A DNA stretch of 9,688 bases, taken from positions 5,411 through 15,098 of the forward strand of contig JAGRMP010000280.1 of NCBI GenBank assembly GCA_020441225.1. The letters are read 5' to 3'. Below, piece by piece: positions 1 to 9,688 of this stretch; within the stretch, counting starts at the first letter, position 1; each line of letters opens with the position of its first letter. The notes beneath the pieces were generated by a model. The model was not told the origin of the DNA. It made no database searches and was given only the letters and a program-made list of their open reading frames with translations. A program made the translations under genes and the position numbers. Source of the DNA: Maritimibacter sp. GTDB lineage: Bacteria; Pseudomonadota; Alphaproteobacteria; Rhodobacterales; Rhodobacteraceae.

Positions 1-1347
1 GCGATCCTCAACACCATCAACACCCGCCTCGATGTCGACACCGTCGCCTATATCTTCGCCCACGGCGGCGCCAAGGTGGCGCTGGTCGACAGCGCCTTTA
101 TCGGCCTCGCCGAAGCCGCGGTCGCCCGTATGGAGGGCGACGCGCCGCTTCTGATCGAGGTCAACGACCCCAATTCCGGCCTCCCCGCGAGCGGGCGGCA
201 CAGGGAATACGAAGACTTCATCGCCGACGGGGATGCGGCGTTCGACTGGCACCTGCCCGAGGACGAATGGGAAAGCCTCGCGCTCAACTACACCTCGGGC
301 ACCACCGGACGGCCCAAGGGCGTGGTCTATTCCCACCGCGGCGCCTATCTGCACACGCTCGGGCTGTCGCTCGACTGGGGGCTGGACCGCAACACGGTCT
401 ATCTCACCATCGTGCCGCTGTTCCACTGCAACAACTGGGTCCACACCTGGTCGATCCCGGCGGTGGGCGGCACTGTGGTCTGCTGCCGCGACATCACGCC
501 CAAGGCGATCTATGACGCCATCGCCGACGAGGGGGTCACCAATTTCGGCGGCGCACCGATCGTCTTGAACATGATCGTCAACGCCAAGGACAGCGACCGG
601 CGCGATTTCGACCATATCGTCAACGTCTACACCGCCGGCGCGCCGCCGCCCGCGGCAGTGCTGGCGGGGATCGAGCCGCTGGGGTTCACCGTGACGCAGA
701 TGTACGGGCTCACCGAGACCTATGGCCATGTCGTCGAATGCATCTGGCAGGACGATTGGGCCGCGCTGCCCGAGGCCGAGCGGTTCGAGCGCAAGGCCCG
801 CACCGGGGTGGCCCAGGTGATGGAAGAGCACGTCACGGTGATGGACCCGGAAACGATGCAGGAGGTGCCTGCGGACGGCGAGACCATCGGCGAGATCATG
901 ATGCGCGGCAACGTGGTGATGAAGGGTTACCTGAAGAACCCCGAGGCCACCCGCGAGGCGTTCCGCGGCGGCTATTTCCACTCCGGCGACATCGCTTTCA
1001 AACATCCCGACGGCTACATCAAGATCACCGACCGGTCGAAAGACATCATCATCTCGGGCGGCGAGAACGTCTCCTCGGTCGAGGTCGAGGGCGCGCTCAT
1101 GCACCATCCAGCGGTGCTGCTCTGCGCTGTCGTCGCCAAACCGGACGAGAAATGGGGTGAGGTGCCCTGCGCTTTCGTGGAGCTCAAGGAGGGCGCCGAG
1201 GCCACCGAGGAAGAGCTCATCGCCTTTGCCCGCGACCGGCTTGCCGGGTTCAAGACGCCGAAACGGGTGATCTTCGAGGAACTGCCCAAGACCTCGACGG
1301 GCAAGATCCAGAAATTCGAACTGCGCAAACGCGTGGCCGAGCTTTAG
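1..1347 (+). CDS. AMP-forming acyl-CoA synthetase, DmdB-like (5' partial)
   Basis: This ligase activates a carboxylic acid through an acyl-adenylate to a CoA thioester, and is probably cytoplasmic. Its 5' end lies outside the window: the frame is open from base 1 with the family motif LNTINTRLD, so roughly 95 residues are missing from a usual ~540. In the visible 448 codons I see the P-loop YTSGTTGRPKG (about residues 97-107), the substrate-pocket segment PLFHCNNWVHTW, the A5 motif QMYGLTETYG, the A7/A8 block YFHSGDIAF..GYIKITDRSKDIIISGGEN, and the A10 catalytic lysine in PKTSTGKIQK. All core motifs are intact. The HCNNW pattern occurs in medium-chain acyl-CoA synthetases and in DmdB, the 3-methylmercaptopropionate-CoA ligase of DMSP demethylation in roseobacters. 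I cannot choose between these by eye. The family call is firm and the substrate is open. Confidence 0.93.
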   Translation, partial: AILNTINTRLDVDTVAYIFAHGGAKVALVDSAFIGLAEAAVARMEGDAPLLIEVNDPNSGLPASGRHREYEDFIADGDAAFDWHLPEDEWESLALNYTSGTTGRPKGVVYSHRGAYLHTLGLSLDWGLDRNTVYLTIVPLFHCNNWVHTWSIPAVGGTVVCCRDITPKAIYDAIADEGVTNFGGAPIVLNMIVNAKDSDRRDFDHIVNVYTAGAPPPAAVLAGIEPLGFTVTQMYGLTETYGHVVECIWQDDWAALPEAERFERKARTGVAQVMEEHVTVMDPETMQEVPADGETIGEIMMRGNVVMKGYLKNPEATREAFRGGYFHSGDIAFKHPDGYIKITDRSKDIIISGGENVSSVEVEGALMHHPAVLLCAVVAKPDEKWGEVPCAFVELKEGAEATEEELIAFARDRLAGFKTPKRVIFEELPKTSTGKIQKFELRKRVAEL

Positions 1348-4082: not shown

Positions 4083-4715
4083 CTATTTCGTTCCGTACAT
4101 CCGGTCGCCCGCGTCGCCAAGACCGGGCACGATATACCCGTGCTCGTTGAGTCGTTCATCCACGGCCGCGGTCACGATCGGCACATCCGGATGCGCCTTG
4201 CCCATCCGTTCCACCCCCTCGGGGGCCGCGAGCAGGCACAGGAACCGGATGTTGGTCGCGCCCTTCTGCTTGAGCAGATCCACCGCCGCGACCGAGCTGT
4301 TGCCGGTGGCGAGCATCGGGTCGACGACGATCACCAGCCGGTCCTCGATCTCGGCAGGCACCTTGAAGTAGTATTGCACCGGCTCCAGCGTTTCCTCGTT
4401 GCGGTAGAGCCCGACGAAGCCGACCCGGGCCGAGGGGATGAGCTCCAGCACCCCGTCGAGCAAGCCGTTGCCCGCGCGCAGGATCGACACCAGCGCCATC
4501 TTCTTGCCGGCCAGTATCGGCGCTTCCATCTCCTTGAGCGGGGTTTCGATGGTGCGCGTGGTCATCGGCAGTTCGCGGGTGACCTCATAGGCGAGCAGCA
4601 ACGAGATCTCCCGCAGGAGCTGGCGGAAGCTGGCGGTCGAGGTGTCGCGCTGGCGCATCAGCGTCAGCTTGTGCTGCACCAGCGGGTGGGTCACGACATT
4701 GAGGTGGTCAAGCAT
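4083..4715 (-). CDS. upp: Uracil phosphoribosyltransferase
   Basis: Upp makes UMP and pyrophosphate from uracil and PRPP in cytoplasmic pyrimidine salvage. The 210-aa product has the family's normal length and is complete. Visible features are the N-terminal [12 protein letters not shown], the flexible segment [12 protein letters not shown] (about 77-88), the PRPP-binding loop [10 protein letters not shown] (131-140), and the C-terminal uracil-binding block [18 protein letters not shown]. The start at 4715 has GGAG seven bases upstream. The start codon lies inside the end of add (8-bp overlap), so translation is probably coupled and upp is the last gene of the cdd-deoB-add-upp operon. It would take up uracil released from the uridine that Cdd produces. 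Confidence 0.97.
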
Positions 4716-5697
4716 CGGCGGGCTCCAGTCTCTTTTCTATCTCTGCGCGGGTACGATCATCGCAAAAGGCGGCGTCGAGGGCCACCCGATTGAGCGCGGC
4801 AAAATCGTCCACGCCCCAGCCGAAGGCCCGGTCGAGCTCTTCGAACTCGCGGGTCATCGTGGTGTGGAAAAACGGCGGGTCGTCGGTGGAGACGGTCACC
4901 GGCACACCGGCCGCGCGCAGCCGGGCAATCGGATGCGCTTCCCAGGACGGATAGAGCCCGAGCGCGACGTTGGAGCCGGGGCAGACCTCCAGCACCGTGC
5001 CGCGTTCGGCAAGTTCGGCGACCAGCGCCGGATCCTCGATCGCCTGCACCCCGTGGCCGATCCGTTCGACCTTGAGATGGGTGAGCGTGTCGCGCACCGA
5101 GGCGGGCCCGCCCCATTCGCCGGCATGGCTGGTGAGCCGCAGCCCGGCCTCGCGGGCCATGTCGAAAGCATAGGCGAACTCGGCCGTGTCATAGGCATCC
5201 TCGGCCCCGCCCATGCCGAAACCGACGATGAAATCGCCCGCGGACTCCTGCGCGCAACGTGCCGCCTCGCGCGCCGCTTCGGGGCCGGAATGGCGCACCG
5301 CGGTGACGATCCCGCGCAGCGTGATCCCGAGCTGCTCGGCGGCGACCGCGGCCTCGAACATGGCGGCGAGATACTCCTGCCAGGCCACCGGATCGCGGCC
5401 GCCGCAGAAATCGGGGGACAGGAAGGTTTCGAGGTAGACCACCCCCTGCTCCGCCGCCTCGCCGGCGACGATGGCGGTGAGCAGCGCATAATCGTCGGGG
5501 GTCGAGAACGGACGGGTCGCCGCCTCGTAGACCTTGAGGAAATCCGGGAAATCCCGGTAGGCATAGGCGCCCTTCGCGTCGAATATGTTCGATATTTCCA
5601 ACCCCTTGGCGCGGGCCATATCGCGCACGAAAGCGGGCGGGGCGGCGCCTTCGAGGTGGTGGTGCAATTCGACCTTTGGGAAATCCTTGTAGCTCAT
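4708..5697 (-). CDS. add: Adenosine deaminase family protein (adenosine, possibly adenine)
   Basis: The product is 329 aa, read from the ATG at 5697 ([17 protein letters not shown]), which has GAGGGG six bases upstream. The frame stays open further upstream but only through repeat-rich spacer DNA. This is a zinc-dependent amidohydrolase. The likely zinc ligands are H12 and H14 (ELHHHLEG), H191 (SHAGE) and D272 (TDDP). E194 is the proton donor, H215 is the catalytic histidine (RIGHG), and GFGMGG (159-164) lies near the substrate. All key residues are present. Its place in a nucleoside operon favours adenosine to inosine. However, HLEG rather than HLDG, and STDDPPFF near the zinc aspartate, also occur in relatives acting on adenine or other aminopurines, so the exact substrate is open. 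It overlaps upp by 8 bp and is separated from deoB by 171 bp. Confidence 0.92.
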
Positions 5698-5868
5698 GCG
5701 CTGCCCCTCACGTTGCGTCTTTCGCCTGCGGCGGGCGGGGTGCCCCGGCTGCGCCGGGGCTGCAGGCTGCGCCCGCCTGCGGCGAGCGGGGGGCGCGCCA
5801 CGGCTGGCGCCGCGGCGCGGGGGCCCGGCTCGACCGGTGCCGCCCGGCCCCCAAAACCACACGCCCGG
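5698..5868 (-). repeat. 171-bp GC-rich spacer between deoB and add with repeats and hairpins
   Basis: No gene is seen here. Two near-identical 18-mers, CGCCTGCGGCGGGCGGGG (5723-5740) and a copy differing by one base (5774-5791), flank a perfect hairpin: GCCCCGGC at 5742-5749 and GCCGGGGC at 5753-5760, with a 3-nt loop. A second stem pairs GCAGGC (5762-5767) with GCCTGC (5775-5780). The arrangement resembles a REP-like or other dispersed palindromic element inserted in the operon. As mRNA it could stall transcription or set a processing/stability boundary between cdd-deoB and add-upp. Confidence 0.6.
5704..5709 (-). promoter_or_regulatory. Shine-Dalgarno deciding the add start
   Basis: GAGGGG on the minus strand ends six bases before the ATG at 5697. 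The longer open frame reaching 5862 has no comparable site and no conserved sequence, so this fixes the start at MSYKDF. Confidence 0.7.
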
Positions 5869-7080
5869 TCACAGGAAGCTTGTCCCCGCGCCGCGCATGT
5901 CGAGGCCCAGATGCGCTGCCACGCTCGCGCCGATATCGGCAAACGCCACCTGGCCGACCGCCCGGGGGCCGAGCCCCCAGCCCAGCACTGGCACCCGCTC
6001 GCGGGTGTGGTCGGTGCCGATCCAGCTCGGGTCGTTGCCATGGTCGGCGGTGAAGATCGCGAGGTCGCCGTCGCGCAGCGTGGCCAGGAACCGGGGCAAT
6101 TCCCGGTCGAACCATTCGAGATGCCCGGCATAGCCGGCGATGTTGCGCCTGTGGCCGTATTTCGAATCGAACTCGACGAAATTGGCAAAGACCAGCGCGC
6201 CCTCTTCCGCCGCTTCGCCCCAGCCCACCAACGCCTCGAACAGCTCGCCGTCGCTGCCATGGATGCCGCTCTCCATGCCGCGATGGGCGAAGATATCGTC
6301 GATCTTGCCGACCGCATGGACCGCCCGGCCGGCATCCTGGGCCCAGTCCATCACCGTGGGCTCGGGCGGTTCGAGCGAGAAATCCCGCCGGTTGGTGGTG
6401 CGGGTGAAGCCGGTCTCGGACGTGCCGACGAAGGGCCGCGCGATCACCCGCCCGACCCGCATCGCATGCAGCATCGGCGCCACCGCCTCGCACATCGCGT
6501 AGAGCCGCTCGAGCCCGTAGGCCTCTTCATGCGCGGCGATCTGCACGACCGAGTCGGCCGAGGTGTAGACGATGGGCTGGCCGGTCCCGAGATGTTCCGC
6601 GCCCAATTCGTCGAGGATGACCGTGCCCGAGCTGTGCTTGTTGCCGAGCACCCCACCCGCGCCCCCGGCCTCGACGAGAGCGGCGGTCACGTCGGGTGGG
6701 AACGCCGGCTGGGCGACCGGGAAATAGGTCCAGTCGAAGGGCACCGGCACGCCCGCGATCTCCCAATGACCCGACGGCGTGTCCTTGCCACGGCTGACCT
6801 CGGTGGCCGCCCCCCAGAGCCCCTGCGGTTTGGCCCCGAGACCGGGCGCCTTCACCCCGGACGCCAGTTCCAGCGCCGCGCCGAGCCCGAGCGCATCGAG
6901 GTTGGGCAACGCCAGCGGACCGGAGCGGCCGGAGTCGGCCCCGCCCGTGGCGCAGGCCTCGGCGATATGGCCGAGCGTGTTGGCCCCGGTGTCGGGCACA
7001 CCGTCGTTGAAGAAACTGTCGGCATCCGGCGCGCCGCCGATCCCGACGCTGTCGAGCACCACCAGGAAAGCGCGGCTCAT
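5869..7080 (-). CDS. deoB: Phosphopentomutase
   Basis: DeoB interconverts ribose/deoxyribose 1-phosphate and 5-phosphate, linking nucleoside phosphorolysis to central carbon metabolism. The 403-aa product is complete and of normal length. It is an alkaline-phosphatase-superfamily enzyme with two Mn ions. The likely metal ligands are D10 (VVLDSVGIGG), D305 and H310 (FDSKYGH), D346 and H347 (TADHGND), and H358 (GTDHTRERVP). The phospho-acceptor threonine is T101 in SRGKDTPSGHWE. All are intact. The start at 7080 overlaps the cdd stop as ATGA and has GGAGGG upstream within cdd, indicating coupled translation. The thymidine and purine nucleoside phosphorylases that would supply its substrate are not in this cluster. 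Confidence 0.97.
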   Translation of the reverse strand: MSRAFLVVLDSVGIGGAPDADSFFNDGVPDTGANTLGHIAEACATGGADSGRSGPLALPNLDALGLGAALELASGVKAPGLGAKPQGLWGAATEVSRGKDTPSGHWEIAGVPVPFDWTYFPVAQPAFPPDVTAALVEAGGAGGVLGNKHSSGTVILDELGAEHLGTGQPIVYTSADSVVQIAAHEEAYGLERLYAMCEAVAPMLHAMRVGRVIARPFVGTSETGFTRTTNRRDFSLEPPEPTVMDWAQDAGRAVHAVGKIDDIFAHRGMESGIHGSDGELFEALVGWGEAAEEGALVFANFVEFDSKYGHRRNIAGYAGHLEWFDRELPRFLATLRDGDLAIFTADHGNDPSWIGTDHTRERVPVLGWGLGPRAVGQVAFADIGASVAAHLGLDMRGAGTSFL

Positions 7081-7484
7081 GCGCCGCCCTCCATCTGCGC
7101 CTTGGCGAAGGCAAAGGGCAGAAGCTCCTCGATCTTGAGCGTGAGTGTATCGCCCCTGAGGTTGGCCATGGTCACGTCCACGCCCGGCGGCGCGAATTCG
7201 GCGATCTTCTGGCGGCAGCCGCCGCAGGGGCTGACCGGTTCGGGCCCATCGCCGATCACCGCGACCGCGGCGATCCGGGTCTCGCCCGCCGCCACCATCG
7301 CCGCGATCGCCCCCGCCTCGGCGCAGGTGCCCTCCGGATAGGCGGCGTTCTCGACATTCACCCCGGTGAACACCCGGCCCGACGCGGTGCGGATCGCCGC
7401 GCCGACCTTGAAGCCCGAATAGGGGGCGTGGGCGTTTTCACGCACCGCCCTGGCGTCTTCGATGAGAGAATTGGGCATGGACAT
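7077..7484 (-). CDS. cdd: Cytidine deaminase, homotetrameric type
   Basis: Cdd hydrolyses cytidine and deoxycytidine to uridine and deoxyuridine. The 135-aa product matches the short zinc-cysteine class. The start at 7484 (MSMPNSLIEDAR) is set by GGAGG six bases upstream; a second ATG two codons later is too far from it, and the open frame further upstream (to 7667) is non-conserved. The zinc ligands are C54, C87 and C90 (TCAEAGAI and PCGGCRQ) and the proton shuttle is E56. The substrate segment APYSGFKVGAAI and NVENAAYPEGTCAE are present. The residue after CAE is alanine, where Bacillus-type enzymes have arginine. This is the first gene of the salvage operon, with deoB overlapping its stop by 4 bp. 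Confidence 0.96.
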   Translation of the reverse strand: MSMPNSLIEDARAVRENAHAPYSGFKVGAAIRTASGRVFTGVNVENAAYPEGTCAEAGAIAAMVAAGETRIAAVAVIGDGPEPVSPCGGCRQKIAEFAPPGVDVTMANLRGDTLTLKIEELLPFAFAKAQMEGGA

Positions 7485-7629: not shown

Positions 7630-9078
7630 CTATTGAGCAGCGTCCTCGGGCACGAACAGCGTGCCATCGCCGTTGAACGTCACCCCTTCGGGCAAAGCCG
7701 GGGCGGGGCCGGCATCGTGGCGCGAGGTCGGGCCGTCGTCGTCGCCCCAGCCACCGGCCGCCGTCGTGACGGCTGCCGGGTTTGCCGCAGGCGCGGCGGG
7801 CGGCGTGACCTCGGGGCTCGCCGCCGCGACGGTCACCTCGTCGGACTGCGGTGCGGGCCCGGCACCGGCATCGGGGGCAGGCGCCAGGGCGGTTGCCGCA
7901 TCTGTTTCCGGGGCGGGATCGCGAACGACCTCGGCCGCGGCGACCGTCTCTTCAACCGGCGCTGTTGTGGGCGCCTCGGCGACCGCCTGAGCCTCGGGTT
8001 CGGGCGCAGGCCCGGGTTCCACCGGCGCCGCCTCCGCAGTCGCCACCGCGACCGCTTCCGGTTCCACCGTGACCCCCTCGCTCACCGCAACCACCGTCGC
8101 ACCGGTCGCCTCGGCCGCGTCCGCACCCGCCTCGGCCGGCCCCGCGATGGTCACCGTTTCCGCCTCCGGCCCGGCGATTTCCTCGACCAGCACCGGCGCA
8201 TCGCCGGCGATGTCGAAGACCTTGCGGCAGGCCTCGAAGCCGTAGAGCCCGCAGGCCGTGCCGTGCATGTCGAGCGCGAGAAAGCCGCCAGCAAACACCT
8301 CATAGCCGCGGATCACGTCGGAAAACATCCGCACATAGCCTTCGTCGCGCGCGAGGAAAAAGCCCACGGTGCAGCCGCCGGTGCTGCAGTTGAGCGTGGG
8401 CGAGGACGAGCACACGGCGGCGGCGTAATCGATCACCAGATCCTCCCGGCCATCGCCATCGAGATCTTCGCGCCGTTCGAACCCCTGATCCATCGCTACC
8501 GTGCCGTCGAGCGCTTCGCAGGCGGCGACGACTTCGCCGAGCACCAGGCTCGCGGGGTTGTCGACCGGCGGCGACGGCATCGGACAGGCCTGCATCACCG
8601 TATAGAGCGCATCCGAGGACCCGTTGAGGCCGATCTCGACCTCCTGCGCCCCGTCCGGCCAATCGAGCCGGAGCGAGGCGCGCAGCCCGCGCTGCAGGAG
8701 ATCGACCAGCTCCTGGTGAATCCGCGGGTCGAACGCCGCCGTAAGCCTTGTGTGTCCCTGAGCGGCATGCGGGGTGAAATTCATCACCCCGACATCGCCG
8801 CCATCGACGCCGACCGTGACCGGGACAGAGGCCTCGACAGGTCCGCGCCCGGCGATCTCGACCGCGAAATGCAAGGGTTCGAATGCCGCGCATTCCAGCC
8901 GGAAACAGAGGTAGTTCGCCGTGCCCTCTTCGCCTTCGGGGCAGATGAAAGCCGTCGCCCCGCCCTCGGGCTCGTTCACCTGCCAGGCCTGCGCCACCGC
9001 GCCCCCGGCCGTGACAAGCCCTGCCCCGGCGACCACCAAAACGGCAAGGACGAGTTGAAAAGGACGAAAACGGCGCAT
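7630..9078 (-). CDS. Secreted cysteine-rich protein with Ca-loop-like motif and Ala/Pro-rich tail
   Basis: The product is 482 aa, read from the ATG at 9078. That start gives a clear signal peptide (MRRFRPFQLVLAVLVVAGAG.., cleavage near AVAQA-W at 31); the longer frame to 9216 would put about 46 odd residues before it. The folded part spans about 32-300 and has ten cysteines (46, 58, 63, 165, 187, 223, 231, 236, 276, 284), suggesting up to five disulfides in the periplasm or outside the cell. DLDGDGREDL (205-214) matches the DxDGDxxxD calcium loop of FG-GAP/dockerin/EF-hand-like motifs. Residues about 303-445 are low-complexity Ala/Pro/Glu/Val, probably an extended linker. A short ordered tail (GGWGDDDGPTSRHD.. 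to FVPEDAAQ) ends the protein. I do not recognise the family and assign no function. It lies 145 bp upstream of cdd on the same strand and is divergent from prpE. Confidence 0.82.
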   Translation of the reverse strand: MRRFRPFQLVLAVLVVAGAGLVTAGGAVAQAWQVNEPEGGATAFICPEGEEGTANYLCFRLECAAFEPLHFAVEIAGRGPVEASVPVTVGVDGGDVGVMNFTPHAAQGHTRLTAAFDPRIHQELVDLLQRGLRASLRLDWPDGAQEVEIGLNGSSDALYTVMQACPMPSPPVDNPASLVLGEVVAACEALDGTVAMDQGFERREDLDGDGREDLVIDYAAAVCSSSPTLNCSTGGCTVGFFLARDEGYVRMFSDVIRGYEVFAGGFLALDMHGTACGLYGFEACRKVFDIAGDAPVLVEEIAGPEAETVTIAGPAEAGADAAEATGATVVAVSEGVTVEPEAVAVATAEAAPVEPGPAPEPEAQAVAEAPTTAPVEETVAAAEVVRDPAPETDAATALAPAPDAGAGPAPQSDEVTVAAASPEVTPPAAPAANPAAVTTAAGGWGDDDGPTSRHDAGPAPALPEGVTFNGDGTLFVPEDAAQ

Positions 9079-9159: not shown

Positions 9160-9269
9160 TTTGCAACCTCGGCCATTGAATTTGCAAAAATATCCGGATT
9201 TCCAGAGAACCTGCATATCTTCCGGGACTTTGCAAAACTTTGCACCCCTCGAAGGCGGTCAGATGCAAA
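9160..9269. promoter_or_regulatory. Cluster of TTTGCAAA motifs, candidate ScfR-family (RamB/PccR/MccR) sites
   Basis: Perfect TTTGCAAA lies at 9181-9188 and 9229-9236. Near matches are TTTGCAAC at 9160-9167, TTTGCACC at 9239-9246 and GATGCAAA at 9262-9269. The segment 9227-9246 is a tandem 10-bp repeat beginning ACTTTGCA twice, one helical turn apart. As I recall the literature, RamB binds an AAAACTTTGCAAA-type sequence and PccR of Rhodobacter sphaeroides binds paired TTTGCAAA. A propionyl-CoA synthetase gene downstream fits that regulon. The regulator's identity is inference. Confidence 0.65.
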
Positions 9270-9307
9270 TGTCGCAGCCGAATTCCGCCCCTGCTGGCGC
9301 AATCATC

Positions 9308-9345
9308 TTGTCCGAAAGCGCGCGGCTCCGTAACAACGTTGCAAA
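9308..9345 (+). promoter_or_regulatory. Candidate prpE promoter with overlapping TTTGCAAA-type site
   Basis: TTGTCC (9308-9313) and TAACAA (9331-9336) are separated by exactly 17 bp. They resemble a sigma-70-type -35 (4 of 6) and a weak -10 (3 of 6). GTTGCAAA (9338-9345, 7 of 8 to TTTGCAAA) follows at once, covering the expected transcription start. Such a position would suit repression. The weak -10 keeps confidence low. Confidence 0.35.
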
Positions 9346-9363: not shown

Positions 9364-9688
9364 ATGGGCTACAAAGAGGTGTATGACGGCTGGCAGGCCG
9401 ATCCGGAAGGCTTCTGGATGGAGGTCGCGCAGGCCATCGACTGGGAGACCGCGCCGACAAAGGCGCTGACCGACAGGGGCGAGGGCCTGTACGAGTGGTT
9501 CGCCGATGGCATGGTCAACACCTGCTGGAACGCCGTCGACCGCCATGTCGAGGCCGGCCGTGGCGACCAGGTCGCGATCATCTACGACAGCCCCATCACC
9601 GGGCGACAGGCGAAGATCACCTATGCCGAGCTCAAGGAGCGCGTGGCGCGCTTCGCCGGCGGCCTCGCCGCGCGCGGGATCGAAAAGG
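9364..9688 (+). CDS. prpE: Propionyl-CoA synthetase (3' partial)
   Basis: The first 108 codons are present, and the frame is open to the window end without a stop. The product begins MGYKEVYDGWQADPEGFW and continues through VNTCWNAVDRHVEAGRGDQVAIIYDS and ITYAELKERVARFAGGLAARGIEK. This is the N-terminal domain of acetyl/propionyl-CoA synthetases, which form the acyl-CoA from propionate or acetate, ATP and CoA. The wording is close to roseobacter PrpE sequences as I remember them, which is why I prefer PrpE to Acs, but the catalytic core is outside the window. It is divergent from the secreted-protein gene, and the repeated TTTGCAAA motifs upstream suggest control by short-chain acyl-CoA status. 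Confidence 0.88.
   Translation, partial: MGYKEVYDGWQADPEGFWMEVAQAIDWETAPTKALTDRGEGLYEWFADGMVNTCWNAVDRHVEAGRGDQVAIIYDSPITGRQAKITYAELKERVARFAGGLAARGIEK

Follow-up and report, generated by a model that had tools for sequence, protein, structure and literature searches.

A conserved array of ScfR-type boxes before prpE in Rhodobacteraceae and PccR as its candidate regulator

The prpE locus and its neighbouring genes

The window, by which we mean the whole 9688-bp stretch of DNA analysed here, ends within a gene for a short-chain acyl-CoA ligase, prpE (9364..9688, plus strand, cut by the window end), and between this gene and a divergent neighbour lies a cluster of short boxes at 9160-9345. The divergent gene (7630..9078, minus strand) has a signal-peptide-like start, and its product gave no match in Pfam or NCBIfam. 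Further from prpE, the minus strand at 4083-7472 carries a nucleoside salvage row (cytidine deaminase, phosphopentomutase, adenosine deaminase and uracil phosphoribosyltransferase), and the window opens within an acyl-CoA synthetase gene of the PRK08162 subfamily (1-1347, plus strand, cut at the window start), which scores above its model cut-off.

The initial annotation held that the gene downstream of the boxes makes propionyl-CoA, and its full-length relatives bear this out. The window fragment alone cannot separate acetate from propionate ligases: the first 108 residues of the protein read from the ATG at 9364 match ACAS_N, AMP-binding falls below its cut-off and acetate-CoA ligase is the best NCBIfam model, slightly ahead. 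Full-length relatives do separate them. One of these, L012, reaches 1199 bits against PDB entry 5gxd, which we take to be the D. shibae PrpE, the next match, to the best acetyl-CoA synthetase, reaching 445 bits; its top NCBIfam models are propionate-CoA ligases, at 724 and 691 bits and below their cut-offs of 955 and 827. Judged by such relatives, the target gene is most probably prpE, a propionate-CoA ligase gene of short-chain acyl-CoA metabolism. Use of the D. shibae PrpE as an acrylate-CoA ligase is described in the available part of PMC5651017.

From a scan of genome contigs we kept 80 prpE relatives, 67-87% identical, which together with the window give 81 upstream regions. Both L001, a Maritimibacter metagenome-assembled genome (MAG), and L002, a MAG labelled Calditrichaeota, are included; their prpE upstreams are identical over the stretch shown, so one of the two MAGs is probably misbinned.

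The box array, its conservation and the predicted promoter

The palindrome TTTGCAAA occurs twice in the window, at 9181 and 9229, against an expectation of 0.02, and two or more copies were found in none of 200 shuffles. Allowing one mismatch at most raises the count to five (1.01 expected; shuffle maximum 4, n=200), four of them inside 9160-9345: the two exact copies, TTTGCAAC at 9160 and GTTGCAAA at 9338. Two half boxes with two mismatches, TTTGCACC at 9239 and GATGCAAA at 9262, bring the series to six starts (9160, 9181, 9229, 9239, 9262 and 9338). These counts and shuffles agree with the two perfect and four imperfect boxes of the initial annotation; its spacings of 21, 48, 10, 23 and 76 bp are exact, and the tandem 10-bp repeat that it noted is ACTTTGCA, present at 9227 and again at 9237. 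The six-box array at 9160-9345 is real and lies far above chance.

We refer to the boxes, none of which is assigned a strand, as A' (9160..9167, an accessory one-mismatch box 21 bp before A), A (9181..9188, perfect), B (9229..9236, perfect and, by column conservation, the best kept of all), the half box B2 (9239..9246, 10 bp after B) and C (9262..9269, degenerate in the window, at a conserved position and closest to the promoter), followed by a sixth box at 9338..9345. Start to start, A and B are 48 bp and B and C 33 bp apart in the window, that is, about 4.6 and 3.1 helical turns.

The array is conserved before prpE in relatives, a point that we ran as a refutation test of the initial reading. 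Two boxes 46-50 bp apart, with no more than two mismatches in all, occur in 65 of the 81 upstreams, as the A-B pair does in the window, vs 1 of 8100 shuffles in which single-base content only was kept. The spacing is 48 bp in 34 of these 65, 49 bp in 26, 47 bp in 4 and 50 bp in 1, and across 60 non-redundant upstreams that carry the array, each box B column is conserved in 59 or 60. No such pair was found in the remaining 16 (L014, L019, L023, L028, L035, L045, L050, L054, L058, L059, L065, L066, L075, L077, L078 and L080), the upstream of L066 comprising just 222 bases. Further boxes or half boxes accompany the pair at preferred positions: 20-23 bp before A, where A' lies, in 37 of the 65 array loci; 8 bp before A, a position empty in the window, in 38; 9-10 bp after B, where B2 lies, in 46; and 31-33 bp after B, the position of C, in 52. 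At control offsets boxes or half boxes were met at 5 of 3900 positions. The array of the initial annotation thus stands in five of its six boxes, which match positions kept in relatives; the box at 9338 does not, and since its counterpart is found in only 4 of the 65 array loci, the window included, it probably lies outside the conserved array. On a PrpE tree of 79 rows, presence of the array switches at least 10 times.

We also considered a constraint that would hold A and C 81 bp apart while B shifts. The A-C distance is 81 bp in 36 of 52 loci (raw table 20/5/6/16, p 4e-4); the PrpE tree, however, gives 5 independent pairs on supported branches, with no trend, and the idea was dropped for that reason.

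A column profile anchored on B shows conservation returning twice downstream, at about 79-82 bp (TTGC) and, to a lesser degree, at about 103-105 bp. On these columns we place a predicted prpE -35 element (TTGTCC, 9308..9313, plus strand) and, 17 bp after it, a putative -10 element (TAACAA, 9331..9336, plus strand), with transcription presumably starting near 9343. A consensus promoter scan of this region of the window did not call the promoter at 9308-9336. A strict promoter pattern was found in 19 of 65 array loci, 1 of the 16 others and 44 of 4050 shuffles, and a strict pattern for a further element, resembling TGCGATAATCTGNC, in 34 of 65, 3 of 16 and 21 of 4050, respectively; because strict patterns for both miss many loci, we relied on the column profile instead. 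A -35-like CTTG follows C at a distance of 45 bp in 41 of 52 loci and of 44-46 bp in 50 of the 52. Counted from a start near 9343, the centres of A, B and C would lie near -159, -111 and -78, and A with its companion, the composite B and C together cover the region from about 180 to about 75 bp upstream of that start. The position of C is a common one for class I activators.

In many relatives (L024 and L044, for example) the stretch resembling TGCGATAATCTGNC lies between C and the promoter, some 75-95 bp ahead of the prpE ATG. It is present also in some array-less upstreams, among them L023 and, from the genomes without a PccR-like protein considered below, L196.

In the window the array also lies about 80 to 190 bp before the start of the divergent gene, and action on that secreted-protein gene had been put forward in the initial annotation. 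As a general role this did not hold up. Relatives of the gene adjoin prpE in 10 of 80 loci, the neighbour in L003 being 75% identical to that of the window over 329 residues. With the upstream neighbour defined as the open frame conserved best within 2 kb, it is codirectional with prpE in 49 and divergent in 10 of the 59 array loci resolved in this way (6 were unresolved), which speaks against the divergent gene as the general target; the nearly fixed spacing to the prpE promoter does so as well. That the array serves the divergent gene is in our view extremely unlikely. In three array-less loci (L054, L065 and L066) a codirectional gene, presumably maeB for malic enzyme, ends no more than about 100 bp ahead of prpE, near enough that prpE may be read through there.

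Candidate regulators and their co-occurrence with the array

The boxes had been read as an operator for a short-chain acyl-CoA regulator of the ScfR family. The family search, a second refutation test, found a PF09856 (ScfRs) gene in 48 of 48 genomes, these being the genomes of 48 of the 80 prpE loci, and the family members present are of three kinds. A high-scoring, PccR-type ScfR (at least 227 bits) is found in 47 of the 48; the remaining genome is a MAG, where pccB was likewise not found. The high-scoring protein aligns with MtPrpR, its relative in the PDB (288 bits), including the CX2CX4C motif, scores 429 bits against the NCBIfam RamB model (cut-off 700) and, where examined (L128 and L145), its gene adjoins an MFS gene and pccB. 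The name pccB is our own reading of a carboxyltransferase gene whose top NCBIfam model, mmdA, stays below cut-off. With PF09856, an MtPrpR-like body, CX2CX4C and a place beside pccB, the high-scoring proteins of the relatives are probably PccR; in the L003 genome both PccR (744 bits, 74% identical to the query PccR) and pccB were found. A divergent kind (about 20-62 bits), which 47 of 48 genomes have, is encoded next to a two-component system in L113 and L115, as Pden_1785 is according to the part of PMC10370305 available. The third, intermediate-scoring kind (187-204 bits) is present in 8 of 48. RamB or MccR was rejected as the general regulator, because intermediate-scoring genes occur in just these 8 genomes, fewer than the at least 27 with a pair at prpE.

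The company kept by the exact box differs between the three kinds. Exact boxes were found in 8 of 8 neighbourhoods of the high-scoring gene (L111, L114, L119, L121, L124 and L128-L130), around the divergent gene in 1 of 8 (L113, L115-L118, L120, L123 and L127) and around the intermediate-scoring gene in 0 of 4 (L112, L122, L125 and L126). Paired boxes were matched in 42 of the 48 genomes, and among the matches listed 94 places, in 36 genomes, could be classified: 42 at prpE (assigned by contig position alone), 27 near pccR or pccB and 25 elsewhere. The last group counts against PccR as the reader of the array, though at least one of the 25 lies at a pccB-like gene on another contig. The start of pccR was found at 23 of 38 loci (two of the 23 being repeats); at least one box is present in 23 of 23 leaders and two or more in 14. 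In leaders such as L084, L087 and L093 the boxes are no farther than about 75 bp from the start of pccR and often 22, 29-31 or 40 bp apart, and their place near the start suggests autoregulation.

We then compared sites and regulator across 199 Rhodobacteraceae genomes. A PccR-like protein is present in 171 of them by a criterion of E up to 1e-60, which admits other ScfR proteins and so makes 'PccR-like' a superset; of the 28 genomes without one, 20 were identified by name and 8 by elimination, their completeness not being given. Pairs of boxes 47-49 bp apart occur in 64 of the 199 genomes, namely in 64 of 171 with vs 0 of 28 without a PccR-like protein (p 1.2e-5, kinship ignored). In 59 of the 64 the pair is located at prpE, 162-215 bp before it, among the prpE positions listed; of the five others, three (G147, G148 and G154) have no prpE position in that list. 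Restricted to the 189 genomes with prpE, the pair lies at prpE in 0 of 24 without vs 59 of 165 with a PccR-like protein, again among the positions listed (p 6e-5, kinship ignored). The 28 genomes are not stripped of the pathway, since 25 keep pccB and 14 the divergent ScfR; prpE is kept in 24.

Upstream regions were fetched for 10 of the 24 prpE genomes without a PccR-like protein and for 30 with one that have no exact pair. Two boxes at the array positions were found in 0 of the 10, and a degenerate array in 7 of the 30 (L203-L205, L208, L213, L214 and L220). At pccB the distribution is sharper: in a hand-picked set, an exact box lies within 350 bp before the gene in 30 of 30 genomes with a PccR-like protein vs 3 of 20 (from the 25 that keep pccB) without (p 1e-10, kinship ignored). 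In 28 of the same 30 genomes pccR and pccB are no more than 5 kb apart, and in the other 2 they lie on different contigs.

Several observations run against control of the array by PccR. The three genomes G186, G192 and G219 keep the exact box before pccB without a PccR-like protein; in the MAG L001 the array is present and neither pccR nor pccB was found, so the region may simply be missing there; and many genomes with a PccR-like protein have no array, the exact pair occurring in just 64 of 171, from which it follows that PccR does not always act on prpE. Chance, or a site for an unrelated factor, would draw on the shortness of palindromes like TTTGCAAA and on genome statistics that ignore kinship. 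Set against it are the excess of TTTGCAAA in the window, the conservation in 65 of 81 upstreams, the pairing of the prpE site with PccR and the contrast at pccB, and we consider it extremely improbable.

Another ScfR might bind the array instead: RamB or MccR in genomes that have them, or the divergent protein encoded beside the two-component system. The near-universal divergent ScfR would be available for this, and a TTTGC(A/G)AA motif is given as common to MtPrpR and MtRamB in the part of PMC6765138 available. The divergent gene is, however, kept in half of the genomes that lack a PccR-like protein, none of which has the pair; exact boxes are scarce beside it and absent from the four intermediate neighbourhoods; and the intermediate kind is itself confined to a sixth of the genomes searched. 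We judge such a regulator very unlikely. From the protein and site comparisons, PccR is the best candidate for the array, which supports the operator reading of the initial annotation and narrows it to one member of the family.

A proposed model of PccR action and its relation to known systems

What is found at 9160-9345 is a TTTGCAAA-type pair upstream of a probable acyl-CoA gene, co-occurring with its candidate regulator (kinship ignored). We think it likely that this is the prpE regulatory region, with clustered PccR operators from which an acyl-CoA-responsive PccR activates prpE. PccR is described as an activator without which R. capsulatus grew less well on propionate (available part of PMC10370305), pccB as being under PccR control (available part of PMC12632250) and MtPrpR as a tetramer that binds CoA and acetyl-CoA (available part of PMC6765138). 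If PccR is tetrameric like its relative MtPrpR, then, charged with a short-chain acyl-CoA such as propionyl-CoA, it would occupy A, B and C, and one tetramer could bridge two boxes; the cooperative or looping control raised in the initial annotation is conceivable. The promoter at 9308-9336 would be activated from C, at a nearly fixed distance to the -35 element, with B as the anchor. The PrpE product, propionyl-CoA (or acryloyl-CoA from acrylate), may report back to PccR; as PrpE makes propionyl-CoA, this would close a positive loop, which PccR-driven carboxylation would balance. With PccR also serving pccB, flux into the pool of propionyl-CoA and flux out of it would increase in step.

The sign of the regulation could also be the reverse for much of the time, PccR binding the array but mainly repressing prpE until acyl-CoA builds up. 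Such a passage from repressor to activator has a precedent in the RamB model, in which the tetramer inhibits and the ligand-charged form activates (available part of PMC10370305), and boxes near the pccR start codon would suit autorepression. The conserved boxes at prpE, however, precede the predicted promoter, with little variation in their distance from it, and conservation is lacking for the one box, at 9338, that would cover the start; we consider repression of this kind unlikely and infer activation.

Going further than activation by PccR, the array might work as a PccR enhancer built of several elements in a nearly constant geometry and make propionyl-CoA entry a cooperative positive-feedback switch. 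This we offer tentatively, and with more doubt than confidence. Were it true, carriers would switch abruptly to the use of propionate, or of DMSP-derived acrylate, along with carboxylation.

The regulator is already known, and it is the arrangement and, probably, the target that are added here. For Rhodobacter (Cereibacter) sphaeroides, PccR and its target pccB (Carter and Alber 2015) are described in the available parts of PMC10370305 and PMC12632250. Like that protein, the candidate regulator is an ScfR regulator of propionyl-CoA assimilation with the same box before pccB and in pccR leaders; the target considered here, by contrast, is prpE, whose elements number at least three and extend over about 110 bp. 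RamB of Paracoccus denitrificans Pd1222 shares the family, near-identical upstream boxes and CoA-thioester ligands, but is described in the available part of PMC10370305 with one pair, an 18-bp spacer and other target genes; two boxes are called 'common for ScfR binding sites' there. The proposed site of MtPrpR of Mycobacterium tuberculosis, the tetrameric PDB relative of PccR, likewise holds TTTGCAAA, but consists of a perfect and an imperfect palindrome 1 bp apart and serves the methylcitrate operon (available part of PMC6765138). The prpE array matches the spacing of neither site (1 bp for MtPrpR, 18 bp for RamB); since spacing varies between the described ScfR members, we do not treat it as defining. 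As the initial annotation had proposed, the array exceeds a simple paired site, being larger than, and spaced differently from, the ScfR site pairs in the available parts of PMC10370305 and PMC6765138. Among the papers listed in a literature search that did not cover the founding PccR paper, none links PccR to prpE, and absence from print is not claimed.

If control of prpE by PccR is correct, PccR, already known to control propionyl-CoA carboxylation, would also govern the activation of propionate and of acrylate, a product of DMSP cleavage, in a common group of marine bacteria. For measuring ScfR binding and activation, the operator also offers naturally occurring losses and variants in spacing, together with an almost constant distance to the promoter. 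A further possible target appears in L155 (1501-1538; G023:C17:313057), where a TTTGCAAA pair lies about 90-120 bp before a gene that we take to encode pyruvate carboxylase.
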